DNA of 34,636 nucleotides from Amniculibacterium aquaticum (GTDB lineage Bacteria > Bacteroidota > Bacteroidia > Flavobacteriales > Weeksellaceae), in the NCBI RefSeq assembly GCF_003852705.1, contig NZ_REFA01000024.1, forward strand, positions 1 through 34,636, written 5' to 3'. Under the pieces are notes generated by a model. The model did no database searches. It was not told the DNA's origin and saw nothing but the letters and a program-made list of their open reading frames with translations. This document shows, in pieces, positions 2,516 to 34,003 of the stretch. How positions within the stretch are numbered: the first letter of the stretch is position 1; each line of letters starts with the position of its first letter. The position numbers and the translations under genes were made by a program.

Positions 2516-2538
2516 AAACCTCCTTTTTGGGAGGTTTT
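2516..2538. terminator. Terminator between convergent hppA and aminotransferase gene
   Basis: An 8-bp perfect stem AAACCTCC / GGAGGTTT with loop TTTTTG is followed by a short T/A tail on the plus strand. It overlaps the stop codon of the convergent aminotransferase gene (2537-2539), so the two transcripts meet here. Confidence 0.65.
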
Positions 2539-3679
2539 ATATTTTCTTCAAGTTTTCCACAGCTTGTACGATGGTATCTTCGTGTTTGGCAAAACAAAGT
2601 CTGATTTTACCAGTATCGATGTGGTCGTGATAGAAAGCTGAATACGGAATTGGAGCAACCTTGATGGTTTCGATGAGCCATTTAGAAAATTCTAAATCAC
2701 TCATATACGGTTTGATGTTCTTGAATCCCACGGTTTGAAAATAGCCTCCTTCTACCTTTGGATCCAGATCAAAGGGGAGCTCTTCGAGTAAATGATAAAA
2801 GAAATTTCTTTTACTTTGATAAAATTTTCTGTGCTCTTCAGCATCGAAAACCTCTAAATATTTAGCCAAAGCATATTGAGAATAGACATTAATATTGAAG
2901 GAAAGGTATTGATGCAAATCCTTGAAGGCTGACATGAATTTTTCTGTCCCCGTGATGTAGCTGGCTTTCCATCCGCTAATGTGGAACATTTTTTCAAATG
3001 AAAAAACAGAAAAACTCCTGTTCTTAATTTCCGGATGCAAACGAGCGGAGTAAAATTCGCTATGGTCGTAACAAAGCAAATCGTAAACTTCGTCCGAAAC
3101 GACCAAGATATCGGTGTTTTTTATGACCTCCCAAAGCTGGTCCCAATCTTCTTTTTTCCAAACTTTTCCCGTTGGGTTACTCGGAGAATTGACGATGATG
3201 CCTTTTGTTTTTTTACGAATAAGAGATTTTAGTTTGTCCCAATCGATGCTGTAATTTTCTTCCATTTGAAAATAAACAGGTACTGCACCTCGAATTTCAA
3301 TAGCTGGAGCATAGGTTTCGTAACACGGTTCGATAACGATCACTTCATCTTCGGGTTCTAGAAAAGTGGCCAATGCCAGATGTATGCCGTATGTGGCTCC
3401 CGGGATAACCGCCAATTCATTTTCGGACAGTTCTAATGGGTGATTTCTTTTTTTATTGAACTTGATGAGGTTTTCCGTCAATATTGGTAACTCCGATACC
3501 GAAGCATACTGAAAAAGATTTTGGTCTGCCGCTTCTATTAAAAAATTTTGAAGACGAGGATCCGGATGGAAATCTGGAGAACCCTGACTTAGATTAACCG
3601 CAAAATGCTGATTTGCCAATTCAGCTATTTCGGTATAAATATTGACTTTACCTGCAGAATGTCTTTTTCTGAACTTCAT
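2537..3679 (-). CDS. PLP-dependent aminotransferase, YbdL/kynurenine-aminotransferase-like, copy 1 (diverged)
   Basis: A 380-residue fold-type I class I/II aminotransferase. The family (E. coli YbdL methionine aminotransferase, eukaryotic kynurenine aminotransferases) transfers amino groups from methionine and aromatic or similar amino acids to 2-oxo acids. Seen: SQGSPDF (31-37), PGATYGIH (93-100), NSPSNPTGKVW (164-174), SDEVYD (195-200), the PLP lysine Lys230 in SFEKMFHISGWK, and RLCFAK near the end. The open frame extends 79 codons upstream to 3916, but that part overlaps the neighbouring gene in another frame and does not look like the family. The ATG at 3679 gives the same length and N-terminus as copy 2. 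It lies 92 bp downstream of copy 2 on the same strand and is probably cotranscribed. It has unusual changes next to the active site (Glu229 before the PLP lysine, INVYSQ for VNAPAQ), suggesting altered specificity. Confidence 0.88.
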   Translation of the reverse strand: MKFRKRHSAGKVNIYTEIAELANQHFAVNLSQGSPDFHPDPRLQNFLIEAADQNLFQYASVSELPILTENLIKFNKKRNHPLELSENELAVIPGATYGIHLALATFLEPEDEVIVIEPCYETYAPAIEIRGAVPVYFQMEENYSIDWDKLKSLIRKKTKGIIVNSPSNPTGKVWKKEDWDQLWEVIKNTDILVVSDEVYDLLCYDHSEFYSARLHPEIKNRSFSVFSFEKMFHISGWKASYITGTEKFMSAFKDLHQYLSFNINVYSQYALAKYLEVFDAEEHRKFYQSKRNFFYHLLEELPFDLDPKVEGGYFQTVGFKNIKPYMSDLEFSKWLIETIKVAPIPYSAFYHDHIDTGKIRLCFAKHEDTIVQAVENLKKI

Positions 3680-3771
3680 TAATGGTATTTTAATTAAATT
3701 TAGTTTTTGTTGAATAAAATTAATTAAAATTCGGTATTGTGCAATGGTGTCTGCGGTTAAATTTGAATATT

Positions 3772-4914
3772 CTATAAGTTTTTCATATTTTTTACTGCTT
3801 GTTCGATAACTTCTTCTCTTTTTGCAAAACAAAAACGAATGTTTCCAGTGTTTTTTTGATCGTGATAAAATGCCGAAACCGGTATTGTAGCTACTTTTTT
3901 CTCTGTTGTAAGCCATATTGCAAATTCCTTGTCGGACATATTGGGTTTTATGGTTTTAAAATTCCCGGTTTGGAAATAACTTCCTTGCGCTGGTCTTTGC
4001 AACTCAAAAGGTGTTTCTTGCATCATATCCCAAAAATAATCTCTTTTTGCCTGCATCAGCTCAGTATTCTTCTTTTGATCGAAAATTTCCAAATACTGCG
4101 CAAGGGCTTGTTGGGCAGGTGCATTCACACAAAAAGTGAGGTATTGATGTACTTTTCTAAAGGCAATGCTTAGTTCCTCAGAGGCAACGATATATCCAAT
4201 TTTCCAGCCGGTAATGTGAAACATTTTTCCAAATGAAAAAATACTGAAGCATCTCTTTTTGAGTTCGGGGTGGTGAAAAGCACTGTGGAATATGGCTTTG
4301 TCATAGACCAAAAGATCATAAACTTCGTCGGAAATTACAATGATGTCGGTGTTTTTTATAACTTCCCAAAACTGATTGATGGACTCTTTGCTCCAAATTT
4401 TTCCTGAAGGATTGTTGGGGGAATTGATGATGATGGCTTTGGTCTTTGGAGAAATTGCATTTTTGAATTCGTCCCAATTGAGTTCAAATTTTTCATTCAA
4501 TTGTACAAAAATGGGTTTTCCACCACTCATCTCAATAGCAGGGACATAGGAGTCGTAACACGGATCAAAAACGATGACTTCATCTCCCGGTTGTAGTATA
4601 GTAGCTAAAGCGGTATAGATGGCATAAGTTGCACCGGGGACAATGGTAATTTCTTCTTTTTCAATAGTTAACGGTAGGACTCTATTTTTGTTGAAGGCCA
4701 CCAAATTGTCAATTAATAAAGGATTGCCTTGTAAAGGCGCGTATTGGTTAAAATTGTTTTCTGTGGCTTGGCTAAGAAGTTTTTTTAGCTTTGGATCGAT
4801 TTCGTAATCGGGGAAGCCTTGGGATATATTGATGGCTTGGTGTTGTTGTGCCAATTGTGACATTTCTGAAAAAATGGTCAAGTCACTGCCGCTGTGTTTT
4901 CTTTGGATATTCAT
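3772..4914 (-). CDS. PLP-dependent aminotransferase, YbdL-like (methionine aminotransferase type), copy 2
   Basis: A 380-residue class I/II aminotransferase and tandem paralog of the gene just downstream. It keeps the canonical family motifs: SQGFPDY (31-37), GATYAIY (94-100), NSPNNPSGKIW (164-174), SDEVYD (195-200), SFGKMFHITGWKIGY with PLP Lys230, VNAPAQ, and RFCFAKREE near the C-terminus. These match the YbdL pattern closely, so methionine:2-oxo-acid transamination is the best guess; kynurenine or glutamine substrates are possible. The ATG at 4914 is chosen over an upstream one at 4947 because MNIQRKHSG aligns with the start of copy 1. It is divergent from the M28 peptidase gene, with 147 bp between them. 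No exact TAnnTTTG promoter box was found for it. Confidence 0.9.
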   Translation of the reverse strand: MNIQRKHSGSDLTIFSEMSQLAQQHQAINISQGFPDYEIDPKLKKLLSQATENNFNQYAPLQGNPLLIDNLVAFNKNRVLPLTIEKEEITIVPGATYAIYTALATILQPGDEVIVFDPCYDSYVPAIEMSGGKPIFVQLNEKFELNWDEFKNAISPKTKAIIINSPNNPSGKIWSKESINQFWEVIKNTDIIVISDEVYDLLVYDKAIFHSAFHHPELKKRCFSIFSFGKMFHITGWKIGYIVASEELSIAFRKVHQYLTFCVNAPAQQALAQYLEIFDQKKNTELMQAKRDYFWDMMQETPFELQRPAQGSYFQTGNFKTIKPNMSDKEFAIWLTTEKKVATIPVSAFYHDQKNTGNIRFCFAKREEVIEQAVKNMKNL

Positions 4915-5061
4915 CAGGAGTATTATTCGTTCGGTAATACAACGCAAATTCGGAATAATTATTTATTTTAGCCGTATCAATTGATGATAAAATTTGATTT
5001 TTTATCGATTGAAATCCCATTCTTACTTAATTTTCATTAAAAAAATACAAAATACTTATTT

Positions 5062-21773: not shown

Positions 21774-22583
21774 CTAATTAATTGCTTTTCTAATCTTGGT
21801 TAATTTCCCCAAGAGGTCATCCAAAAGATCCAATTTCAGCATATTGGCTCCATCGGATTTTGCACACGAAGGATCCGGATGGGTTTCTATAAAAAGTCCA
21901 TCTGCACCCACAGCAATTCCGGCTTTGGCAATGGTTTCTATAAGCTCTGGTCTCCCGCCGGTAACTCCAGATTCTTGGTTGGGTTGTTGCAAAGAGTGGG
22001 TGATGTCCAGGATAACCGGGGCGTATTTTTGCATCGTAGGAATCCCACGGAAATCTACAACCAAATCGGTATATCCGAAAGAATTTCCTCTTTCGATAAT
22101 GCCGACTTTATCGTTGCCGGAGTCTTTCACTTTTTGTACGGCAAATTGCATGGATTCAGGAGACAGAAATTGTCCTTTTTTCAGCGTTACTACCTTTCCG
22201 GTTTTTGCTGCTGCAACGACCAAATCGGTCTGTCTAACCAAGAAAGCGGGGATTTGCAATACATCAACATATTGTGCAGCAAGAGCGGCATGCTCGTTTT
22301 CGTGGATGTCGGTTGTGGTTGGGATGTTGAAATGTTGTCCTACTTTCTTGATGATCTCAAGGGCTTTCAGGTCACCAATTCCTGTAAAAGAATCGACTCT
22401 GGAGCGGTTGGCTTTTTTAAAGCTTCCTTTAAAAATGTAGGGGATTTCGTATTTGTTTGTTATTGCAATTACTTTTTCTGCAATTTCAAAAGCCAACTCT
22501 TCGCTTTCTATGGCGCATGGACCGGCAATTAGGAAAAAGTTATTTGAATTTTTGTGTTGGATGTTATGAAGATGTTGTATCAT
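21774..22583 (-). CDS. kdsA: 3-deoxy-8-phosphooctulonate (Kdo-8-P) synthase, metal-dependent class
   Basis: This 269-residue cytoplasmic TIM-barrel enzyme condenses arabinose 5-phosphate with phosphoenolpyruvate to give Kdo 8-phosphate for lipopolysaccharide. Seen: IAGPCAIES (19-27), FKGSFKKANRSR (51-62), TTDIHE, QIPAFLVRQTDL, and DITHSLQQPN. The four ligands that define the metal-dependent class (as in Aquifex) are all there: Cys23, His196, Glu233 and Asp244. E. coli-type metal-independent enzymes have Asn at the cysteine position. The start ATG lies 20 bp inside the end of the upstream TPR gene, which points to translational coupling. It works one step after KdsD, whose gene is about 9 kb away in the opposite orientation. 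Confidence 0.96.
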   Translation of the reverse strand: MIQHLHNIQHKNSNNFFLIAGPCAIESEELAFEIAEKVIAITNKYEIPYIFKGSFKKANRSRVDSFTGIGDLKALEIIKKVGQHFNIPTTTDIHENEHAALAAQYVDVLQIPAFLVRQTDLVVAAAKTGKVVTLKKGQFLSPESMQFAVQKVKDSGNDKVGIIERGNSFGYTDLVVDFRGIPTMQKYAPVILDITHSLQQPNQESGVTGGRPELIETIAKAGIAVGADGLFIETHPDPSCAKSDGANMLKLDLLDDLLGKLTKIRKAIN

Positions 22584-23436
22584 TTTTTTGTATTGTAGAT
22601 TCTAAAAGTTCTATTTGTTTTTTATATCGTTCTGTATCGAATTCTTTTTTAAATTCTATCAACCATTTTTTAGCAATATCATTTCTTTTTTTGTGACTGC
22701 TGTGAAGGATCAGGTTGCTTATGGCTTCGGCTTTGTAAGTCGGGATTTTAAAATTTGAAATATTATTAACGATGAATTTTTCAGTTTCTGTAATTTTGGA
22801 TTGATTGAGTAAAGAATAGATGTATTCTTTATAAATTAATTCGTCTTTGAAATTGTTTTTAAAGGCTTCGTCACAAATTTGTTCTGCCTCGGGAAATTTT
22901 CCTAAAGCATTGTAGGAAAAAGCCAATTCAAAATAGAATTTATTGTTGAAGAATTTTTCACTTCTTAACTTTTCTAAGATGGGCAGGGCAAGTTGTGGAG
23001 CATTGCCACCGTTCAAAGAGCTGGCTCTATTTAATTTTTTTTCTTGATCCGTATCATTTGTTTTATAAAATTTTAACCATTCCGGTTCTGCTTCTAGCTT
23101 AGATTTTTCAATAAATGTTTGTGGTACTTTAGAAACTTTCAAAGCAAAATTTTCTATTCTAAAAATAATAAAAGCATGCTCTGCTTTGGGATCTTTTTTT
23201 AAAATTATATTGTCATTTTCATCACTGAGTATTTCTCCGATGTGCCTATAACTGTAACCCGCCATAGAGTCGTAATATACATAACCAAAAGTATATTGCT
23301 TGGGTGTTTTGCTTTCAGTAGCAATGTATTGGTTTTCTGCTTCTGAAATTGGAGTGTCAAATTTTAAATCACTGGTTTTTTGTGCGAAACCAAAAGTGAA
23401 TGATGTTATTAAAAATGCAATTGAAATTTTTTTCAT
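22564..23436 (-). CDS. Exported TPR-like protein of unknown function
   Basis: A 290-residue protein with a signal peptide (about 1-18, ITSFTFGFAQ), a variable N-terminal region (about 20-125) of mixed beta character, and a helical C-terminal part (about 135-290) resembling tetratricopeptide repeats: NKFYFELAFSYNALGKFPEAEQICDEA and ELIYKEYIYSLLNQSKITETEKFI. I do not recognise a family. It is probably periplasmic. Its 3' end overlaps the kdsA start by 20 bp, so it heads an apparent operon with kdsA and the TonB receptor; that arrangement does not prove a role in Kdo synthesis. A -7 box TATTTTTG lies about 20 bp upstream. Confidence 0.75.
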   Translation of the reverse strand: MKKISIAFLITSFTFGFAQKTSDLKFDTPISEAENQYIATESKTPKQYTFGYVYYDSMAGYSYRHIGEILSDENDNIILKKDPKAEHAFIIFRIENFALKVSKVPQTFIEKSKLEAEPEWLKFYKTNDTDQEKKLNRASSLNGGNAPQLALPILEKLRSEKFFNNKFYFELAFSYNALGKFPEAEQICDEAFKNNFKDELIYKEYIYSLLNQSKITETEKFIVNNISNFKIPTYKAEAISNLILHSSHKKRNDIAKKWLIEFKKEFDTERYKKQIELLESTIQKNDTTSS

Positions 23437-23498: not shown

Positions 23499-24977
23499 TT
23501 ATTTTCTTTGGTAAAGGTTGTAATCCGTCCCCGATGGTTTTAGTCTGTAGATTTTCTCCAAAATTTTATTGTTGGATTTCAGATGGTCTTTAATTCTAAA
23601 TTCTTTGATGAGTTTATAATTTTCCTTGTAATAATCGGCATTTTCGTCTTGCGAAAGGTCCTTGTAAGAAAGCAAATATTTTGGTTTTCTGTTCTTGATG
23701 GTGTTAATTTTATAATGGGATTTGTCCTTTTTTATTTCATCTTGAATTTTTTTATCGACCAATCCCACTTCGTCAATGGTTTTTAGATGCGAGAAATACG
23801 GAACATAACCTGCAGGTTCTAAAAAGATCCATTGGTTTTTATCTTTTTCTATACTGTCCAGGTACAAGCCGATGTATCTTCTATAATTCCACTCTCCATT
23901 GCCTGTGGCGATAGAATGCACGGTTTGAAAGGCTACCATGGGCAAAATGTAAAAAATAATTAAGAGTGAAAGCCAAAGTTTTCTCTTCCTTTCTTGTTCC
24001 AAAATCAAGATCAAAATAGGGACAAAAAGCAGAATTTGTGGTACCCAGTAATACCAATCGAATAGGCTTTTTTGTGAAATGAATATCAACTGTTTTGCCC
24101 AACCAAAAATAAAAACCATCCATAGAAAACGGTTTCTTTCTTCTTTCTTTTTGATGATGAAAATGAAAGCTAAAATTTCGAATACAAGAACCACCCAAGT
24201 AATCGGGTTGATGGCTCCGGGAAGCTTTATCATTCCCCAAAAGTTTCCATAATTCAAATAAAAATATTCCCAGTTTTGTGCCGTGGTAAAGCTTCTGTCG
24301 TAGGTCAATTGTTTTGCTGTGATGGTGTTGTTCACCACTTCGTGGAAGTACAAGCTATTGAATCCGAAAACGACACCAAGTCCCAAAATTCCCCCCAAAA
24401 TATAAGACCATCGGATTTTTTTTGTCCAAATAAGATCCACCAAAAAGACAATTCCTAGGAAAATTACCGTATCTATTCTTGCAAACAATATGAGAATGGG
24501 GAAGAGGATGAGCGCCCATTTTTTCTCTCTGAAAAACCCAAAATAAATTAAACTCATCTCTAAGAAAAACAACAACCCGTACTCCATACCCAAAATAGAA
24601 ATCTTAATGGAGGGTGGCAGTATCCCAAATAAAAAGATGAATACAGCTTGATGCCAGACATCTTTTAGTAATACTTTCGACAGCAGATAAGAGCCTATTG
24701 TAAATAATATGGAGTTGAAAATTAAAAGTGGATAGACAAAGTTGATTTTCCCAAAAAGTAGATTGAAAAAATAAGAGGTAAACATGTACAAGTGCGTGGT
24801 CGATGAGGATATTTTCTCTGCTCCATTAAAACCGATCACTCCATAATCCAACAGGTTTTGTGCGACCCTCCAAGTGATGAGTGCATCTTCCTGAATGTGT
24901 TGGGTTGCTAGAAAAATCAGTTTGAAAAGAATGGTGAAAATTACTGCGTAAACCGGTATTTTGTTTGTGTTTTTCAA
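23499..24977 (-). CDS. Polytopic GT-C-type glycosyltransferase-like membrane protein
   Basis: A 492-residue protein with about ten hydrophobic segments (about 8-375) and a soluble C-terminal part (about 385-492). Near the N-terminus the first extracytoplasmic loop has QEDALITWRVAQNLLDYG, then GFNGAEKISSSTTHLYMF. This acidic pair (Glu30-Asp31) followed by R-A-NL-G and N-G-E-S-T is a pattern of GT-C enzymes that use polyprenyl-phosphate sugars (arabinosyltransferase AftB-like and related). The C-terminal FLEPAGYVPYFSHLKTIDEVGLVD also recalls that group. Donor and acceptor are unknown. The start is TTG at 24977; no in-frame ATG lies before the upstream terminator, and a TATATTTG box lies 22 bp upstream. 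It lies next to the DUF2723 protein, another GT-C fold. Confidence 0.72.
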   Translation of the reverse strand: MKNTNKIPVYAVIFTILFKLIFLATQHIQEDALITWRVAQNLLDYGVIGFNGAEKISSSTTHLYMFTSYFFNLLFGKINFVYPLLIFNSILFTIGSYLLSKVLLKDVWHQAVFIFLFGILPPSIKISILGMEYGLLFFLEMSLIYFGFFREKKWALILFPILILFARIDTVIFLGIVFLVDLIWTKKIRWSYILGGILGLGVVFGFNSLYFHEVVNNTITAKQLTYDRSFTTAQNWEYFYLNYGNFWGMIKLPGAINPITWVVLVFEILAFIFIIKKKEERNRFLWMVFIFGWAKQLIFISQKSLFDWYYWVPQILLFVPILILILEQERKRKLWLSLLIIFYILPMVAFQTVHSIATGNGEWNYRRYIGLYLDSIEKDKNQWIFLEPAGYVPYFSHLKTIDEVGLVDKKIQDEIKKDKSHYKINTIKNRKPKYLLSYKDLSQDENADYYKENYKLIKEFRIKDHLKSNNKILEKIYRLKPSGTDYNLYQRK

Positions 24978-25054: not shown

Positions 25055-28000
25055 TTATTGGGTTACCTTGATAATGGCGTTGGTAATCTGGCTTTCTTTC
25101 TCTTTGGAATAAGTGGAGTCGTAAGGATCCATCACATCAAATAAGTATTGGTAAAATGGGGTGATGTTTTGTACTTTTTCCGATTCTTTCATGGCTTTTT
25201 CCTTGCCGATCATTTCCAAATCTTTTACAAATTCGTTAAAGCGTTTGTCGATTGGTGTTAAGGATTTGCTAATGTAATCGTAGGCCTTGTCCTTTTGTCC
25301 CATTCTTTCATAAGCATCCGCAACAGCACTCACCACAAGAGAGTATTCCATTGGTTTTACCCTCATTTCTCTTTTAACAAATTTTTGCTCTTTAGCGCTT
25401 AGTCCCAAGTAATAATCGTATTCTTTGAAGATGGTTTTCTTAAGTTCGTCGGCCATTTTCAGTCCTTTGGCTTCTTGTCCGGAAGCGATATATCCAGTAA
25501 CCAAATAGCTCAACGATCGCACATCGGAATATTTGCTTGCCGGGATTTCAGCATTTGCCAAATCCAAAAGTTCAGTTGCTTTTTGTTTTTCTCCCATTTT
25601 TGCCAAAGCCTGAGCAGCTCTAGAAGCCGTGCTTCTGTAAGTGATGATGTTGGAGGTGCAGGTTTCATCAAAATGTACATTTAGATCTTTAAAGTTGCCC
25701 CATTTGAAGTTTTTCACCACTTGATACAGTTGGTTGCCGTCCACTCTTCCGATTTCGCCACTGGCATCTTGTTTCGTATATATCGGTACCAAACGGAAAC
25801 TGAATCCGTCCATCTGAAGATAATTTTGAAGGAAAAAAACATTTTCATCATCATAAATTCCACCATTTGAGAAGCTGATCGGTCTTTTCCAATCGAAGTT
25901 GGCCAAGATGTCCATAAGCATCAAATTGTTTTTAAACATCGACGATTTTTTATAATCGATAACGATTTGATCTGCAGCCAATGCAGCATCTTTTGCTGTG
26001 ATAATTCCTGCTTTTACCGCATTTTCTTTATTCACTGGAAGTATGAATTTACTAACCGGCAAGAAGTTGAACTTTTCGTACTTTTCTTCACCGAAAATCA
26101 TTTTCAAGATCTCGTCTTTCTCCGCAGATTTATGTTTTATGAAGTTAATGGCTTCCTTCATGGTCATGGAATCTTGAGTGATGAACTTCCTAAATCCAGC
26201 AAAAGCAGTTTCCGGAGCTCCTTGTTCTTGCAAATTGTCGAAAATTCCTTTCCAATCGTTCGGTGTCATCAGATAGATTTGGTCGTTGGTGCCTTCTCTA
26301 TATTCGTTATGAGAAAGTACACTTGGTACAGGCATGGCATTGTAAGTTCTTCTTTTTACTTGGTCAATATTCCAAGGGGTAGAAAGTAGGGTAAAGTTGA
26401 CCACTTTCACATCGTCACGGAAGTTTTCAGTTTCTTGTATCGCCCAAACCGGATAGGTGTCGTTGTCACCGTACACAAATATGATGTCGTTTTTTGGCAA
26501 AGATTTCAGTACAGAATAGGCGTAATCGTGAGCCGCCTCTCTACCACTTCTGTTGTGTGGTGTATAATTTTGGAAGCCCATCATTAGCGGAATACCCAAC
26601 AAGATCACTCCGGCTACAATATTAATTCCATTGGATTTTATTTTTTGTTGAATAAACCACAAGATAGCCGCAGCTCCCAAACCAATCCAAATGGCAAATG
26701 CGTAGAACGAGCCCACCATGGCATAGTCTCTCTCCCTAGGTTCGAAAGGCTTTACTCCGGTATAAAAAACAATTCCTATACTGGTAAGTACAAATAAAGA
26801 TAGGATGGCGTAAAATCTGCCGAAATCGCGGTTCAGTTGGAAGAAAAAGCCGATTAACCCTAGCAAAAGTGGCAAGAAAAAGAATTTAACCGTACTTTCA
26901 TTGTTGAATTTTGCAGGCATTTTACTCATATCTCCAACATTGGCTTGGTCAATAAACGGAATTCCGGAAATCCAATTTCCTTTGGTGTTTTCCATATTTC
27001 CCTCCAGGTCATTTTGTCTTCCAACAAAATTCCAAAGAAGGTATCTCACAAAATAATATCCGTTTTGGAAAGTGAAAAAATAATCTAAATTTTGTGATAA
27101 ACTAGGTCTTTGAACATTGATTAAGTCGTATTTTTTGGCTTGAAGATAATCCTCCAGCTTGATGCTTTTGTCTTCGTATTTGGATCGCAAATCTTCAAAA
27201 ATTTGTTTGGCTTCCGGACTGTCTGCTATGGCTTCGTTGGAATAGTTGAAGGTGAAGTCCGGTGCGCCGTACATGCTGATGTAGTTGGACATAACATCCT
27301 GACTTTCGTTGAACATTCTTGGCATAAAACTCACATGGGCCGGGTTGTACACATAATCAAATCTTCTGCCTACCTCGCGGTACTCTCCAGATTGCTCGTC
27401 TTTTTCATAAATTACTCCTTTGTCCACACTTTTATAGCTGCCGTCTTCATTTTTTTCAATGCCATTTGCATCCAAATAAGCGGTGTAGTTTTGTCCGTAG
27501 ATGGTTGGCCAATCGCCGTATTGTACACGGTTGTAATAATCCAACATCCCAATGGCATTGTCCGGATCGTTCAGGTTCATCGGTGGGTTGGCATTGGCAC
27601 GGATAGGGATAACCAACCAACACGAGAATCCAATAATCATGAAAACAACCGATAATGCTATGGTTTGTATAATTTTCCTACCCGATTTGTTGGCGTATTT
27701 AACAGCGAAATAACTCGCAAGAATCAATAAAATAAATGCAATGATGGTACCCGAATGGAAAGGCAATCCCAAACCGTTTACCGCGAATATTTCCGTTTTT
27801 CCAAAGAAAGTCATGATCACCGGGAAGATGATTTTGAAAACAAAACTCAGTACGACCAGAGTGATGGCATTGGCCCAAATGAATGATTTCCAAGAAAATG
27901 TGTAATTTCTAGCGTAGTACACCAAACAAACTGCCGGTATGGCCAACATGCACATCATGTGTACACCAACAGAAAGTCCGGTTACAAAAAAGATAAGGAT

Positions 28001-28540
28001 AATCCATCTTTGGTTGTCGTTTTCGTGATATTCATTTTCCCATTTGGTGATGAGCCAAACAATCAAAGCAATAAACATGGAAGCCATAGAATATACTTCG
28101 CCTTCCACAGCCGAATACCAGAATGTGTCCGAAAAGGTAAAGGCTAAAGCACCGATAAGTCCTGAAAATAAAATGGAAATTTCTTGGTGTTTTGTGATCT
28201 CATCAAAATCTTTGTTTAGAAGTCTTCTTACCAAATGCGTGATGGTCCAAAACAAAAATAAAATGGTAAATGCACTAAACAAAGCCGACATGGCATTGAT
28301 CACAATGGAGTACAGTTCGCCTTGTCCCATGGCAAAAATCGCCGCTACGGCTCCAACCAATTGAAAGAGAGCCGCTCCAGGAGCGTGGGTAACTTGAAGT
28401 TTTACAGCGGATGAAATGTATTCGCCACAGTCCCAAAAACTGAAACTCCTTTCCATGGTGCTAAGGTAAGTGGTTAGTGCAATGATGAAAACAACCCATC
28501 CCAAAAGGGTGTTCCATTTTTTAAATGTCCAATTTTTCAT
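25055..28540 (-). CDS. DUF2723-family membrane protein (GT-C / protein O-mannosyltransferase-like)
   Basis: A 1161-residue protein. The N-terminus (about 10-330) is strongly hydrophobic with the DUF2723 signature FSFWDCGEYISSAVKLQVTH (Asp37, Glu40 in the first external loop) and HAPGAALFQLVGA. A second membrane block lies about 560-690 (KPFEPRERDYAMVGSFYAFAIW). Between and after these are large soluble regions, including VYGDNDTYPVWAIQE, and the C-terminus (about 1000-1150) looks helical and TPR-like. The family is present in nearly all Bacteroidota, is classed with GT-C glycosyltransferases and is expected to move a sugar from a polyprenyl carrier to protein or glycan outside the inner membrane. 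Its exact reaction is not known to me. The gene is monocistronic, ending in a terminator, with the other GT-C-like gene next downstream. Confidence 0.85.
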   Translation of the reverse strand: MKNWTFKKWNTLLGWVVFIIALTTYLSTMERSFSFWDCGEYISSAVKLQVTHAPGAALFQLVGAVAAIFAMGQGELYSIVINAMSALFSAFTILFLFWTITHLVRRLLNKDFDEITKHQEISILFSGLIGALAFTFSDTFWYSAVEGEVYSMASMFIALIVWLITKWENEYHENDNQRWIILIFFVTGLSVGVHMMCMLAIPAVCLVYYARNYTFSWKSFIWANAITLVVLSFVFKIIFPVIMTFFGKTEIFAVNGLGLPFHSGTIIAFILLILASYFAVKYANKSGRKIIQTIALSVVFMIIGFSCWLVIPIRANANPPMNLNDPDNAIGMLDYYNRVQYGDWPTIYGQNYTAYLDANGIEKNEDGSYKSVDKGVIYEKDEQSGEYREVGRRFDYVYNPAHVSFMPRMFNESQDVMSNYISMYGAPDFTFNYSNEAIADSPEAKQIFEDLRSKYEDKSIKLEDYLQAKKYDLINVQRPSLSQNLDYFFTFQNGYYFVRYLLWNFVGRQNDLEGNMENTKGNWISGIPFIDQANVGDMSKMPAKFNNESTVKFFFLPLLLGLIGFFFQLNRDFGRFYAILSLFVLTSIGIVFYTGVKPFEPRERDYAMVGSFYAFAIWIGLGAAAILWFIQQKIKSNGINIVAGVILLGIPLMMGFQNYTPHNRSGREAAHDYAYSVLKSLPKNDIIFVYGDNDTYPVWAIQETENFRDDVKVVNFTLLSTPWNIDQVKRRTYNAMPVPSVLSHNEYREGTNDQIYLMTPNDWKGIFDNLQEQGAPETAFAGFRKFITQDSMTMKEAINFIKHKSAEKDEILKMIFGEEKYEKFNFLPVSKFILPVNKENAVKAGIITAKDAALAADQIVIDYKKSSMFKNNLMLMDILANFDWKRPISFSNGGIYDDENVFFLQNYLQMDGFSFRLVPIYTKQDASGEIGRVDGNQLYQVVKNFKWGNFKDLNVHFDETCTSNIITYRSTASRAAQALAKMGEKQKATELLDLANAEIPASKYSDVRSLSYLVTGYIASGQEAKGLKMADELKKTIFKEYDYYLGLSAKEQKFVKREMRVKPMEYSLVVSAVADAYERMGQKDKAYDYISKSLTPIDKRFNEFVKDLEMIGKEKAMKESEKVQNITPFYQYLFDVMDPYDSTYSKEKESQITNAIIKVTQ

Positions 28541-28914
28541 GATTTATTTATACAATTCTGCGAAAATAGTATTTTTCAATCATTTATTTGGAATTTTTAG
28601 TGAGAATCAAATCTTTTTAAAAGTATTTTAATCTTTTGAAAGTTTTTAATTTTATCACTCACTTTCTTGAAAGCTTAACGCCTTGATTTTTAGTTTTCAG
28701 TGAATAAGTATTTCAGATGTTTTTATCTAAATTAAGTGTGGTGAGTGATTTTTATTAAAAAATGGTTTGATTTTTGCAACCGAAAAGTGTTTTATAAATA
28801 TTTGTAATTGTACTGTTTGTAGGTTTTTGAAAATTTTATTGACTTAAATCACAAGAATAAAAATATTTTTTTTATACTTTTGCAAACGGTTTTTTAGAGA
28901 AAAATGATAATATA
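28541..28914. other. Divergent intergenic region between the DUF2723 and sulfonolipid genes
   Basis: These 374 bp are AT-rich and hold no gene I can support. The right end has a -7 box (28875-28882) for the plus-strand gene. A near-match TATTTTCG on the minus strand (28568-28561) may serve the DUF2723 gene. In the middle, ATCACTCAC (28654-28662) is exactly inverted at 28741-28749 as GTGAGTGAT, 78 bp apart, and a small palindrome CTTTCTTGAAAG sits at 28662-28673. These could be operator or looping sites. Confidence 0.45.
28875..28882 (+). promoter_or_regulatory. -7 box of the cysteate-synthase-like gene
   Basis: TACTTTTG matches TAnnTTTG exactly, 32 bp before the start codon, followed by GCAAAC as often seen after such boxes. 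No TTG lies 19 bp upstream. Confidence 0.6.
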
Positions 28915-29952
28915 ATGACTAATGTTCACGATAACATTTTAGGATTAATTGGGAATACTCCGTTAGTAAAATTGAATGAAGTAACCAAACAATGTCCTGC
29001 AAAAGTTTATGCTAAATTAGAATCATATAATCCTGGGCACTCCACCAAAGACAGAATCGCTCTTCATATTATTGAAGCGGCAGAAAAAAAAGGTCTTTTG
29101 AAGCCCGGTTCAACTATTGTGGAAACAACTTCTGGGAATACAGGGTTCTCCATTGCTATGGTCAGCATCATCAAAGGATACAAATGCATCTTATCCGTAA
29201 GTGATAAAACCAAAGCCGAAAAGATTGCCTACCTTAAAGCTTTAGGTGCCGAAGTTCATATTTGTCCGGCCTCCGTTCCAGCAGATGACCCAAGATCCTA
29301 TTACGAAGTTGCTAAAAGAATTGCTGCAGAAACTCCAAATTCTATTTACATCAATCAATATTTTAATGAATTGAATATTGATGCGCATTACCAAACAACA
29401 GGCCCTGAACTTTGGGAGCAAACCGAAGGTAAAATTACTCACATCTTGGCTTGTACCGGTACCGGTGGGACTCTTTCCGGAACTGCAAAGTTTCTAAAAG
29501 AAAAAAATCCAAACATCAAAGTAATCGGTGTAGATGCCGACGGTTCAATATTGAAAACCTACCACGAAACTGGAAAAATTGATCATTCTGAAATTCATTC
29601 CTACCAGATCGAAGGTCTTGGGAAAAATTTAATTCCTTCAGCTTTGTTGTTTGATAAAGTAGATGAATTTGTTCGTGTTAATGACGAAATGTCCGCATAT
29701 TGCACCAGAGAAATTGCATTAAAGGAAGCTATTTTGGGAGGTTATACCACAGGAGCTGTACTGCAAGCGTTCAAACAATATTCAGAAGACAATCAATTAT
29801 CAGAAAATGATTTGGTAGTTTTAATTTTCCCAGATCACGGTTCCCGATACATCACAAAAGTGTACAGCGATCAATGGATGGCGGATCAAGGTTTCGTAAA
29901 TAATTGTGTTCACAATTATGACGAGGTTTTTAAAACAGAAGTTGTAAAATAA
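28915..29952 (+). CDS. PLP-dependent cysteine-synthase-family enzyme, probable cysteate synthase
   Basis: A 345-residue fold-type II enzyme. Seen: IGNTPLVKLNE (12-22), the PLP lysine Lys45 in NPGHSTKDR, the substrate loop TSGNTG (72-77), the phosphate-binding loop GTGGT (182-186), and FPDHGSRYITKVYSDQWM near the end, as in cystathionine beta-synthase and cysteine synthase. By motif alone it could be a cysteine synthase or cystathionine beta-synthase. The next gene is a serine-palmitoyltransferase-like enzyme, and in Bacteroidota sulfonolipid synthesis a cysteine-synthase-like cysteate synthase works with such an enzyme. I therefore infer that it makes L-cysteate from an activated serine (O-phosphoserine) and sulfite. 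There are no CBS or heme domains. The reading frame starts with ATG without a Shine-Dalgarno sequence. Confidence 0.8.
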   Translation: MTNVHDNILGLIGNTPLVKLNEVTKQCPAKVYAKLESYNPGHSTKDRIALHIIEAAEKKGLLKPGSTIVETTSGNTGFSIAMVSIIKGYKCILSVSDKTKAEKIAYLKALGAEVHICPASVPADDPRSYYEVAKRIAAETPNSIYINQYFNELNIDAHYQTTGPELWEQTEGKITHILACTGTGGTLSGTAKFLKEKNPNIKVIGVDADGSILKTYHETGKIDHSEIHSYQIEGLGKNLIPSALLFDKVDEFVRVNDEMSAYCTREIALKEAILGGYTTGAVLQAFKQYSEDNQLSENDLVVLIFPDHGSRYITKVYSDQWMADQGFVNNCVHNYDEVFKTEVVK

Positions 29953-29965
29953 TAATGAATAACAA

Positions 29966-30012
29966 AAACATAAATCAGTCTTTTACTCACCGTGAAAGAC
30001 TGATTTATGTTT
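29966..30012 (+). terminator. 18-bp perfect inverted repeat between the two sulfonolipid genes
   Basis: AAACATAAATCAGTCTTT (29966-29983) is perfectly complementary to 29995-30012, with an 11-nt loop. It lies 13 bp after the first gene and 34 bp before the second. The 3' side has only three T, then AATAATTAATAAAAAA, so it is a poor classical terminator. It could be a partial terminator, an mRNA stabiliser or a protein site. Confidence 0.5.
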
Positions 30013-30046
30013 AATAATTAATAAAAAATTAATAAAAATTCGCAAA

Positions 30047-31321
30047 ATGATAGATATTTTCGATAGAATAAAACAGAATCCTGGTCCTCTAGGACAATTT
30101 GCAGATTACGGAGAAGGGTATTTTATTTTCCCAAGATTAGACGGTCCTATCGGACCTAGAATGAAATTTCAAGGTAAAGAAGTGATTTTTTGGTCGGCCA
30201 ACGACTATTTAGGACTTTGCAACCACCCGGAAGTTTTAGAAACCGATGCCAAAGCTGCTGCAGAATACGGAATGTTTTATCCTATGGGAGCCAGAGCCAT
30301 GTCCGGAGAAACCGATAACCACCTGAAACTGGAAAAAGAACTAGCAGAATTTGTACAAAAAGATTCGGCATATCTTCTAAATTTCGGATATCAAGGGATG
30401 GTATCTACTATTGATGCTCTTGTCTCCAGACACGATGTTATCGTTTACGACTCCAACTCTCATGCGTGTATTGTAGATGGGGTTAGATTGCACATGGGAA
30501 AAAGCTTTATGTTCCGTCATAACGATATGGACAGCTTCGAAAAAAACATCAAAAGAGCAACAAAAGTAGCCGAAGAAAACGGTGGCGGTATCTTGGTAAT
30601 CACCGAAGGTGTTTTTGGGATGACTGGACAACAAGGAAAACTGAAAGAAATTGTAGCGTTTAAAAAACAATATCCTTTCCGTCTATTGGTCGATGACGCT
30701 CACGGTTTCGGAACCTTGGGGAAAACAGGTGCCGGAGCTGGAGAAGAGCAAGGTTGCCAAGACGAAATCGATGTGTATTTCTCTACTTTTGCCAAATCCA
30801 TGGCAGGATTCGGAGCATTTTTGGCCGGAAACAAAGAAATCATCAGATACCTAAAATTCAACCTTCGCTCTCAGATTTTTGCAAAATCCCTTACCATGCC
30901 AATGGTTTTGGGCGGATTGAAAAGATTGGAATTGCTAAGAACAAGACCAGAAATTAAAGCCAAACTTTGGGAAAATGTAAACAAACTTCAAAGTGGTTTG
31001 ATAGAAAGAGGATTCAACTTAGGGAATACCAATACCTGTGTAACTCCGGTTTTCATGCAAGGAAGCCCCGTGGAAGCTACACTTTTGGTAAAAGATCTTA
31101 GAGAGAATTTCGGTATTTTTACCTCTGTGGTGGTCTATCCCGTTATTCCTAAAGGTATGATTTTGTTGAGACTGATCCCTACTGCTTCTCACACCGATTC
31201 CGAAATCAACGAAACACTAGCTGCTTTTGAAGCCATCCATGACAAATTGGTTTCTGGACAATACAAACAGCAAGCTGAACAATATTTGAAAGAAAATAAT
31301 TTGAGTTTCAAAGAAATTTAA
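30047..31321 (+). CDS. Alpha-oxoamine synthase family enzyme, probable cysteate fatty acyltransferase (capnine synthesis)
   Basis: A 424-residue fold-type I PLP enzyme of the family of serine palmitoyltransferase, KBL and AONS, which condense an amino acid with acyl-CoA or acyl-ACP and release CO2. Seen: FWSANDYLGLCNHPEV (48-63), GARAMSGETDNHLKLE (81-96), YDSNSHACIVDG (134-145), DDAHGFGTLGKTG (216-228), and the PLP lysine Lys250 in STFAKSMAGFGAF. Its N-terminus (FDRIKQNPGPLGQFADYGEGYF) resembles the flavobacterial proteins shown to act as cysteate fatty acyltransferase in capnine (sulfonolipid) synthesis, as I recall. The upstream cysteine-synthase-like gene supports this. Alternative: serine palmitoyltransferase for sphingolipids. 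No ketoreductase or N-acyltransferase gene is present next to it. A terminator follows. Confidence 0.82.
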   Translation: MIDIFDRIKQNPGPLGQFADYGEGYFIFPRLDGPIGPRMKFQGKEVIFWSANDYLGLCNHPEVLETDAKAAAEYGMFYPMGARAMSGETDNHLKLEKELAEFVQKDSAYLLNFGYQGMVSTIDALVSRHDVIVYDSNSHACIVDGVRLHMGKSFMFRHNDMDSFEKNIKRATKVAEENGGGILVITEGVFGMTGQQGKLKEIVAFKKQYPFRLLVDDAHGFGTLGKTGAGAGEEQGCQDEIDVYFSTFAKSMAGFGAFLAGNKEIIRYLKFNLRSQIFAKSLTMPMVLGGLKRLELLRTRPEIKAKLWENVNKLQSGLIERGFNLGNTNTCVTPVFMQGSPVEATLLVKDLRENFGIFTSVVVYPVIPKGMILLRLIPTASHTDSEINETLAAFEAIHDKLVSGQYKQQAEQYLKENNLSFKEI

Positions 31322-31345: not shown

Positions 31346-31388
31346 CCCGATTTATTTAACTTTAATAAAAATAAATCGGGTATTTTTA
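31346..31388 (+). terminator. Terminator of the acyltransferase gene
   Basis: The perfect 12-bp stem CCCGATTTATTT / AAATAAATCGGG with an 11-nt loop is followed by TATTTTTA. Confidence 0.85.
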
Positions 31389-31408
31389 TGAAATAAAACA
31401 ACCAATTG

Positions 31409-32500
31409 ATGAAAGAAAATCCAAAAATTACAATCATCTTTATTCTACCGGATCTGGAAACGGGTGGTGCAGAACGCATTGTCGTGTCTTTGGCCAATCA
31501 TTTACCAAGAGAAATTTTTATTCCAAAAATTTTGCTCCTACGAAAAGAAGGAGGGTATCTTTCTTTTGTAAAAGACGATGTTGAAATTATTGATCTCAAA
31601 ACACAACGCATTCGCAACGGTTTGCTTCCAATTCTAAAAGAAATTAGAATAAGAAAACCCGAATTGGTCTTTTCTGGTTTTGGAGAGGTGAATGCCTATC
31701 TGTCTTTTTTTGTGAAATTTTTCCCAAAAACAAAATTTATCGCCAGAGAAACCAATGTAGTTTCCCAACATGTAACAAGAAAAGAAATTCGGTTTTTTTA
31801 TAAATTCTACAACAATTACCACAAAATTATTTGCCAAAGCGACGATATGAAACAGGATTTGCTCCAAAATTTTCATATTCAAAATTCAAAAACAGTGAAA
31901 ATCAACAATCCTGTAGATTTTGATTTTATCGAAAAGCAAAGTCGTGATGCTTTGGCTCCGCAAAAATTTTCTTCTGATTTCAAAAATGTTGTTGCAATCG
32001 GAAATTTGTCATCAAGAAAAGGTTTTGATCTCTTGTTAAATGTTTTTGCCCGTCTGAAAAATGAAAAAATCCTCTTGCACATCCTCGGAGATGGTCGTGA
32101 TAAAGAATTGCTGTTGAATTTAAAAAAAGAATTAGGATTAGAAAATGTAATCTTTCATGGACAACAGAAAAATCCGTATCAATTTTTGAAGCATGCCGAT
32201 TTATTTGTTCTTTCCTCTCGTTACGAGGGTTTCCCCAATGTACTTTTAGAGGCCGGTGCCTGTGGGACTTATTCCTTAGCCAACGATTGTCCGGGTGGGA
32301 TTAGAGAAATTATCCTTCCGAATATTAACGGAGAAATAGAATATATTGAACAACCTGAAGCTTTTGCAGAAAAAATTAAAAGCATTCTTCAAAAAAAGTT
32401 CAATAGAGAAACGGTTAAAGAATCGATCAGATCTCGATTTTCTAAAGAAATTATTTTTCAAAGCTATTTTAATTTATTTCAAGATTTTAGAAATTGGTAA
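31409..32500 (+). CDS. GT4-family glycosyltransferase
   Basis: A 363-residue retaining GT-B glycosyltransferase. Seen: the N-terminal donor-facing loop DLETGGAERIVVSLAN (15-30), the inter-domain region NPVDFDF, the C-domain opening VAIGNLSSRKGFDLLL, LHILGDGRDKELL, GQQKNPYQFLKHADLFVLSSRYEGFPNVLLEA with the E-x7-E pair Glu273/Glu281 that binds the nucleotide sugar, and NDCPGGIREI. No signal peptide or membrane segment is present, so it acts at the cytoplasmic face. Its sugar and acceptor are unknown; lipopolysaccharide or other surface glycans are likely. The ATG at 31409 is used; a TTG directly before it is unlikely. There is a terminator on the upstream side. No other polysaccharide gene is adjacent, so this is an isolated transferase. 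Confidence 0.88.
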   Translation: MKENPKITIIFILPDLETGGAERIVVSLANHLPREIFIPKILLLRKEGGYLSFVKDDVEIIDLKTQRIRNGLLPILKEIRIRKPELVFSGFGEVNAYLSFFVKFFPKTKFIARETNVVSQHVTRKEIRFFYKFYNNYHKIICQSDDMKQDLLQNFHIQNSKTVKINNPVDFDFIEKQSRDALAPQKFSSDFKNVVAIGNLSSRKGFDLLLNVFARLKNEKILLHILGDGRDKELLLNLKKELGLENVIFHGQQKNPYQFLKHADLFVLSSRYEGFPNVLLEAGACGTYSLANDCPGGIREIILPNINGEIEYIEQPEAFAEKIKSILQKKFNRETVKESIRSRFSKEIIFQSYFNLFQDFRNW

Positions 32501-32599: not shown

Positions 32600-34003
32600 A
32601 TGTCACAGTTTGATGTTACCGTAATCGGTTCTGGTCCTGGTGGATATGTTGCAGCAATCCGTGCTGCTCAATTGGGTTTCAAAACAGCAATTATAGAAAA
32701 ATATCCAACCATGGGTGGGACTTGTCTCAATGTAGGGTGCATCCCTTCCAAAGCATTGTTGGATAGTTCAGAACATTTCGAAAAAGCAAAACATGAATTT
32801 GCAGACTACGGAATTATCATCAACGAGCCTAAAGTAGATTTGGCTAAAATGATCGCCAGAAAAGATGCGGTTGTTGATCAAACTACAAAAGGAATTAGCT
32901 TTTTGATGGATAAAAATAAAGTAACCGTTTTCGAAGGTATCGGTAGCTTCGAGTCGGCTACTCAGATCAGAGTAACCAAAAACGACGGTTCTTCAGAAAC
33001 TATCGAGTCCAAATACACCATCATCGCAACCGGTTCCAAGCCTTCTTCTTTGCCATTTATCAACATCGATAAAGAAAGAATCATCACCTCTACCGAAGCA
33101 CTTAAGATGAAAGAAGTGCCGGAACACATGTTGGTTATTGGTGGTGGAGTTATTGGTCTAGAGTTGGGTTCTGTATATCTTAGGTTAGGAGCTAAAGTCA
33201 CAGTAATCGAATTTATGGATAAGATAATCCCGGGTATGGACGGTGCTTTGTCCAAAGAACTACAAAAAGTACTTAAAAAACAAGGAATGAAATTCGAACT
33301 TTCTACAGCCGTTTCTGGTGTCGAAAGAAATGGAGATGCAGTTAAAGTTTCAGCAAAAAACAAAAAAGGCGAAGAAGTTGTTTTCGAAGGAGATTATTGT
33401 TTGGTCTCTGTAGGTAGAAAACCATTCACAGACGGACTAGGATTAGAAAAAGTAGGAGTAGAGCTGGATGAAAGAGGTAGAGTAAAAACCAACGACCACT
33501 TACAGACCAATATTTCTAACATTTATGCCATCGGAGATGTCGTGAAAGGAGCAATGCTTGCACACAAAGCCGAAGAAGAAGGGGTATTTGTTGTAGAAAC
33601 TTTAGCCGGACAAAAACCGCATATCAATTATAACCTTATTCCAGGTGTTGTGTACACTTGGCCAGAAGTTGCCGGAGTAGGTAAGACCGAAGAGCAATTG
33701 AAAGCAGAAGGTGCCGCATACAAAGTGGGGAACTTCCCTATGAGAGCATTGGGTAGAAGCCGTGCCTCTGGAGATACCGATGGTTTTGTAAAAATATTGG
33801 CCGACGAAAAAACCGACGAAATCCTAGGATTCCACATCATCGGAGCTCGTGCAGCCGATCTAATTGCAGAAGGAGTTACCGCAATGGAGTTTCGTGCAAG
33901 CGCCGAAGACCTAACCCGTATGTCGCACGCGCATCCAACTTATGCAGAAGCCATTAAGGAAGCAGCATTAGACGCAACTGGCAAAAGAGCCATTCATATG
34001 TAA
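32600..34003 (+). CDS. lpdA: Dihydrolipoyl dehydrogenase (E3)
   Basis: This 467-residue flavoprotein reoxidises dihydrolipoamide of the 2-oxoacid dehydrogenase complexes and the glycine cleavage system with NAD+. Seen: the FAD-binding GSGPGGYVAAI (10-20), the redox disulfide GGTCLNVGCIPSK (Cys42, Cys47), the NAD-binding GGGVIGLELGSVYLRLG, the second FAD segment IYAIGDVVKGAMLAHKAEEEG, and the C-terminal catalytic dyad His445-Glu450 in HAHPTYAE. Length and order are those of the standard enzyme, with no lipoyl domain fused to the N-terminus. No E1 or E2 genes are nearby, so E3 is probably shared between complexes. A near-match -7 box TAAATTCG lies at 32559-32566. A terminator follows. Confidence 0.97.
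   Translation: MSQFDVTVIGSGPGGYVAAIRAAQLGFKTAIIEKYPTMGGTCLNVGCIPSKALLDSSEHFEKAKHEFADYGIIINEPKVDLAKMIARKDAVVDQTTKGISFLMDKNKVTVFEGIGSFESATQIRVTKNDGSSETIESKYTIIATGSKPSSLPFINIDKERIITSTEALKMKEVPEHMLVIGGGVIGLELGSVYLRLGAKVTVIEFMDKIIPGMDGALSKELQKVLKKQGMKFELSTAVSGVERNGDAVKVSAKNKKGEEVVFEGDYCLVSVGRKPFTDGLGLEKVGVELDERGRVKTNDHLQTNISNIYAIGDVVKGAMLAHKAEEEGVFVVETLAGQKPHINYNLIPGVVYTWPEVAGVGKTEEQLKAEGAAYKVGNFPMRALGRSRASGDTDGFVKILADEKTDEILGFHIIGARAADLIAEGVTAMEFRASAEDLTRMSHAHPTYAEAIKEAALDATGKRAIHM

Follow-up and report, generated by a model that had tools for sequence, protein, structure and literature searches.

What is made by the two adjacent genes for pyridoxal 5'-phosphate (PLP)-dependent enzymes on a contig of Amniculibacterium aquaticum? 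The stretch analysed, hereafter the window, is the 34,636-nt contig NZ_REFA01000024.1 (C24), which belongs to a 2.55-Mb genome that is 99.79% complete. Judged by sequence comparison, their products are very probably the enzymes of the opening two steps in the synthesis of capnine, a membrane lipid base that contains sulfur: a cysteate synthase of the CapA type and a cysteate fatty acyltransferase (CFAT) of the CapB/SulA type. The pathway has already been published, and the gene pair is a further copy of a known system. The two genes are:

28915–29952, forward strand: predicted cysteate synthase, CapA type; 345 aa, ATG start; assigned from model NF053679, structure 9k2p and the CapA clade
30047–31321, forward strand: predicted cysteate fatty acyltransferase, CapB/SulA type; 424 aa, ATG start; assigned from structures 28eh and 7u7h, Lys280 and the tree

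The original prediction, made from the letters of the window, had proposed a cysteine-synthase fold for the first protein and a serine palmitoyltransferase (SPT)-like fold for the second. Both folds were recovered, as a full-length PALP domain (PF00291, 265 bits) and a full-length alpha-oxoamine synthase domain (PF00155), respectively. Chance matches are excluded by far, the best PDB E-values being 6e-139 for the first protein and 2e-194 for the second. The PLP sites had been described as intact, and so they proved: Lys250 of the second enzyme is in place in the alignment, and STKDR, TSGNTG and GTGGT, which we take to be the PLP motifs of the first protein, are all present. Open reading frame (ORF) calling found both genes intact. 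The statement that one gene is directly followed by the other held in part: they are adjacent, on the same strand and separated by 94 nt, but a strong hairpin sits between them.

Among solved structures, the second protein was most similar to 28eh (650 bits), whose depositors name it ‘Cysteate-C-fatty acyltransferase’, and to 7u7h, the SulA enzyme of Alistipes finegoldii (560 bits), compared with 232 bits for the solved SPT of Sphingobacterium multivorum (3a2b) and 197 bits for a KBL enzyme. The second gene could nevertheless encode an SPT for ordinary sphingolipids, the first being a cysteine synthase that adjoins it by chance. Fold family, PLP chemistry and catalytic residues are indeed common to the second enzyme and the S. 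multivorum SPT, and the top NCBIfam match of the second protein is an SPT model (NF047600), at 281.6 bits, which is below the curated cut-off of 640. In a maximum-likelihood tree, however, all 41 CFAT rows (including 28eh and 7u7h) shared one side of a 100/100 branch, opposite 13 SPT-type and 2 KBL rows. Of the 53 other genomes whose CFAT is at least 51% identical, 34 contributed CFAT rows (29 as loci and 5 of the 18 from family f21), as did 4 of the 80 named relatives’ loci described below. Eight of the 12 ‘SPT’ loci scored below the SPT cut-off and are hence labelled SPT-type only. The tree program warned of long branches meeting across the split, between the five CFATs of family f21 and the SPT/KBL rows. 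The phylogenetic check against SPTs named in the original prediction, for which grouping with true SPTs would have counted against a CFAT, was thus decided in favour of its reading.

The same division was found at a single residue. SulA was reported to use cysteate and acyl-acyl carrier protein (acyl-ACP), not serine or phosphoserine, and its Lys281, which replaces an alanine of SPT, may according to the same report separate sulfonolipid from sphingolipid condensing enzymes (Radka et al., PMC9304779). The corresponding residue of the second protein is Lys280; this position held lysine in 41/41 CFAT rows, alanine in 13/13 SPT-type rows and asparagine in the two KBL rows. In the alignment of Weeksellaceae-type rows, Lys280 was conserved in 81/81, as were the active-site residues N52, H139, D217, H219, K250 and R375. 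These six (N53, H140, D217, H220, K251 and R376 in SulA numbering) are shared with SPT. The window enzyme thus has the clade, the active-site residues and the diagnostic lysine of A. finegoldii SulA, whereas the S. multivorum SPT has alanine at that site and lies in a separate clade. At the thresholds used, the host genome holds two proteins of the CFAT/SPT/KBL families, the product of the second gene and a glycine C-acetyltransferase (676 bits, cut-off 493), and no SPT above the NF047600 cut-off. Score, tree and diagnostic residue lead us to reject SPT identity for the second protein, and since its gene is also linked in a conserved manner to a CapA-clade gene, a sphingolipid enzyme beside a chance neighbour is extremely improbable.

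The first protein has the cysteate synthase CapA model NF053679 as its top NCBIfam match. In a second tree it fell inside a CapA group of 24 rows (100/98), or 25 rows together with a gene from family f5 (L147; 100/99), which holds 14 proteins scoring over the NF053679 cut-off and the solved structure 9k2p. In this tree, the gene of locus L061 is represented under the label L175, and genome G069 contributes two identical rows. The second cysteine-synthase-like protein of the host genome (L018, C6:85047-86018, 329 aa) was placed outside the CapA group, among proteins resembling cystathionine beta-synthase (CBS).

The neighbourhood of the two genes is conserved. The window genome is nearest to Cloacibacterium (Weeksellaceae), a group not known to glide, and the comparison drew on 80 relatives kept of 573 found, from which the window’s own species may have been left out. 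At the protein level, the second gene product shares 92% identity with that of Cloacibacterium normanense and 83–92% with those of the remaining 79. Cloacibacterium, Planobacterium, Elizabethkingia and Riemerella, all Weeksellaceae, are among these relatives; most of the names are, we presume, those of Weeksellaceae genera, and a few are metagenome-assembled genomes (MAGs). The gene pair is adjacent in 77 of the 80 loci, and two of the other three, Riemerella (L061) and a MAG (L026), carry the first gene elsewhere, with 80 and 82% identity. Many Chryseobacterium loci have the same adjacent pair at 80–88% identity; the sequences of Chryseobacterium gleum, presumably a member of the same family (Weeksellaceae) as the window genome, lie outside this comparison. 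More widely, a CFAT at 51% identity or more occurs in 54 of 148 Bacteroidota genomes, the next best matches reaching at most 37%. A CapA-clade gene, whose membership outside the tree rests on score, was found in 18 of the 148, all of them within the 54, and in 11 of these 18 the two genes adjoin, with their order unchanged and 75–299 nt between them, although sampled related genomes are not independent.

Several observations weigh against the proposed assignment. The NF053679 score of the first protein, 561 bits, misses the cut-off of 600 by 39, which also sets it apart from the CapA of Capnocytophaga. Its closest structure, 9k2p (466 bits), was deposited merely as the beta subunit of a PLP-dependent protein, and its depositors give no cysteate synthase name. 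No CFAT-specific model was matched in the NCBIfam search of the second protein, so that its CFAT name depends on its nearest PDB structures, its place in the tree and a single diagnostic residue. Beside this residue, Phe77 (codon 30275-30277) occupies the position of SulA Ala78; phenylalanine is found here in 81/81 Weeksellaceae-type sequences, compared with alanine, glycine or serine in the other 34 CFAT rows. The third locus without an adjacent pair (L028, a 1.5-Mb MAG) keeps the CFAT, with no match to the first gene. By score, 36 of the 54 CFAT genomes lack a CapA-clade gene, so CapA and CFAT are not obligate partners across the phylum. The host genome gave no match to PAPS (3'-phosphoadenosine-5'-phosphosulfate) reductase (PF01507) or sulfite reductase (PF01077), other sulfite routes not having been searched for; the two families were matched in 14/14 and 11/14 control genomes, respectively. 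Finally, a text search of one literature library found no paper joining Cloacibacterium with sulfonolipid.

Some of these points can be set in context. In the 148 genomes, NF053679 scores were 616–663 in family f2 (14 genomes), which belongs to the same order as the window and is probably Flavobacteriaceae, and 546–561 in family f1 (3 genomes), which is the window’s own and whose other two sampled genomes score 546 and 548. One f5 gene (G037) reached 508.5 bits and all others at most 493. The cut-off appears to be tuned to family f2. Because it is missed, we place the first gene by its clade and do not claim NCBI’s automatic name. As for Phe77, the backbone carbonyl of SulA Ala78 was reported to help hold the diagnostic lysine (PMC9304779). 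C. gleum is a reported sulfonolipid maker (PMC11211663, PMC10191378), and its cysteate synthase and CFAT enzymes were reported to be functional (PMC11211663); as a CFAT from this organism was reported active on cysteate, phenylalanine at this position is probably tolerated. As for CFAT genomes without CapA, Alistipes and Odoribacter are said in a review to use another, archaeal-type cysteate synthase, which in Alistipes stands in place of CapA (PMC10191378).

The score below the CapA cut-off and the lack of PAPS-reductase and sulfite-reductase family matches would both suit a cysteine synthase or CBS acting in general sulfur metabolism, with cysteate coming from another source, and the next best model for the first protein is indeed CBS (377 bits, cut-off 510). 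This explanation is very unlikely, given that a separate CBS-like paralog at C6:85047-86018 takes its place among CBS-like proteins in the tree, that the three genomes of the window’s family score above G037 and everything else outside f2, and that CapA-clade genes co-occur with and adjoin CFAT genes. The assignment as CapA is therefore retained, although no PF01507 or PF01077 match accounts for a supply of sulfite to this enzyme. The other substrate could be provided by SerC, the maker of O-phosphoserine, which is present in the host genome. Capnine synthesis might conceivably be the main sulfite fixation of this lineage, with sulfite imported or derived from organic sulfur, the sulfonolipid serving as a sink and the hairpin keeping the acyltransferase below CapA; we consider this improbable.

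How the two genes are expressed was approached through their flanking and intergenic sequences, in which three further features are recognized:

28875–28882, forward strand: TACTTTTG, a match to TAnnTTTG (the −7 box of flavobacterial sigma-A) lying 40 nt ahead of the first gene’s ATG; probably the promoter from which the pair is transcribed
29966–30012, forward strand: long inverted repeat (hairpin) in the spacer, with an 18-bp perfect stem, 21 predicted pairs and a loop of 5; terminator- or attenuator-like
31346–31380, forward strand: probable terminator after the second gene, a 12-bp perfect stem followed by TATTTTTAT

The motif TANNTTTG is the reported −7 consensus of flavobacterial sigma-A (PMC9723704). 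It was found within 100 nt upstream of the first-gene start in 74 of 75 stretches, the window included, compared with a mean of 8.2 in mononucleotide shuffles. Its position was mostly −38 to −41, and −40 in the window. Generic sigma-70 and terminator scans of this stretch gave fewer sites than shuffled sequence (10 vs 14.0 and 2 vs 3.3, respectively) and did not list the hairpin.

The spacer of the window folds with −27.8 kcal/mol (z −9.6), and none of 200 shuffles was as low. Strong folding is common at this position: 68 of 78 spacers (77 loci plus the window) had z below −2, with a median of −3.1, and 10 of 78 lay above −2, compared with 0 of 74 control stretches lying before the first gene. 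Stem sequences vary from genus to genus. In 16 Chryseobacterium spacers, a T-run comes after a stem of conserved sequence, an arrangement typical of intrinsic terminators. Covariation was not seen in these 16, chosen from the 78 (0 of 9 pairs changed on both sides), and support for the hairpin thus comes from how strongly the spacers fold and from the occurrence of different stems in different genera.

The hairpin might be a full terminator, which would make the two genes independent transcription units. Among eight pair spacers from other families, four (L109, L110, L113 and L114) have a stem with a T-run, whereas in L111, L112 and L116 a clean stem with T-run is absent, and in L118 the stem is long but its T-run weak. 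Outside the window’s family, moreover, 19 of 27 loci (L103–L129; shuffle mean 2.1) carry TANNTTTG in the 120 nt before the CFAT gene, at −37 in L110 and −29 in L114; in L113 a box is visible further upstream than the scanned stretch, and L109 has one only at −10. Even among the Weeksellaceae-type spacers, 14 of 78 carry the box, all of them longer ones of at least 92 nt. The other 64 do not, and these include the spacers of the window, L023 (95 nt) and L025 (101 nt). The distance from stem to CFAT start has a median of 22 nt across the spacers. A promoter needs more room than this, so too little is left for one, and the stem of the window lacks a strong T-run. Full termination is therefore possible but doubtful as an account of this step. 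Partial termination with read-through between the two genes, which a transcriptome study of flavobacteria lists among its categories (PMC9723704), is the most likely interpretation for the window.

The original prediction had placed the later reductase and N-acyltransferase away from the pair. A Pfam scan agreed, finding no short-chain dehydrogenase/reductase (SDR) or acyltransferase family among 23 ORFs of the window, 2 of which were without a match (43 ORFs of at least 90 aa were listed, many overlapping). A 270-aa SDR encoded at C1:99521-100333 has the 3-ketodihydrosphingosine reductase KdsR (NF049977) as its top model, with 229.8 bits against a cut-off of 400, and is perhaps a candidate 3-ketocapnine reductase by sequence similarity. 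Such an SDR, at 229–281 bits, is found in each of the 17 sampled genomes of families f1 and f2. SDRs related to it are common, however, occurring at E 1e-30 in 126 of the 148 genomes, with no score above the cut-off. We know of no defined sulfonolipid N-acyltransferase family.

The CapA/CapB system of Capnocytophaga (Liu et al. 2022, as cited in PMC10191378, PMC11211663 and PMC9304779) comprises the same two enzyme types with the same proposed reactions, from which the window pair differs in having no reductase adjoining. A similar dispersal was reported for Cys1/CFAT1 of C. gleum DSM 16776, where the tested reductase genes are likewise non-adjacent: 3 of 12 tested SDRs worked, none of them adjoining the pair (PMC11211663). 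For the window, transcription would probably start from the TACTTTTG box before the first gene, and the hairpin would probably limit the amount of transcript that reaches the second. In the PLP-dependent reaction of the CapA-type enzyme, sulfite would take the place of the phosphate in O-phosphoserine, giving L-cysteate. The CapB/SulA-type enzyme would then condense the external aldimine of PLP and cysteate with acyl-ACP, with loss of CO2, to form 3-ketocapnine. Its conversion into capnine would fall to a reductase whose gene lies elsewhere (perhaps the SDR gene at C1:99521-100333), and an N-acyltransferase would then turn capnine into sulfonolipid.

Two genes downstream of the pair were considered as pathway members and rejected, because tblastn matched them in few of the 80 related loci: a glycosyltransferase (31406-32500) in 1 and a dihydrolipoyl dehydrogenase (32600-34003) in 3. 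The flanks of these loci extend to at most 6 kb, some being shorter, and in L061 the dehydrogenase match is far from the pair and has the opposite orientation. Upstream, a divergent gene for a TMEM260-like protein (25055-28540) was matched in 73 of the 80 loci, for which we claim no functional link. Beyond it lie two reverse-strand ORFs without a Pfam match (22564-23436, 290 aa; 23499-24977, 492 aa); the longer was matched in at least 42 of the 80 loci, whose flanks end there. Two neighbouring aminotransferase genes, also on the reverse strand (2537-4947), both best match methionine aminotransferase PRK09082 (357 and 447 bits, cut-off 420). Their longest ORFs overlap. No match covers residues 1–89 of the 459-aa ORF, so the upstream start of this ORF is probably spurious.

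The gene pair points to a missing source of sulfite in this organism. Together with its relatives, in which the genes are adjacent with a hairpin between them and sometimes a promoter box, it also provides a comparative set for studying the balance between the two steps. The assignment predicts sulfonolipids in a Cloacibacterium-like organism, and such lipids have reported immune and developmental effects.

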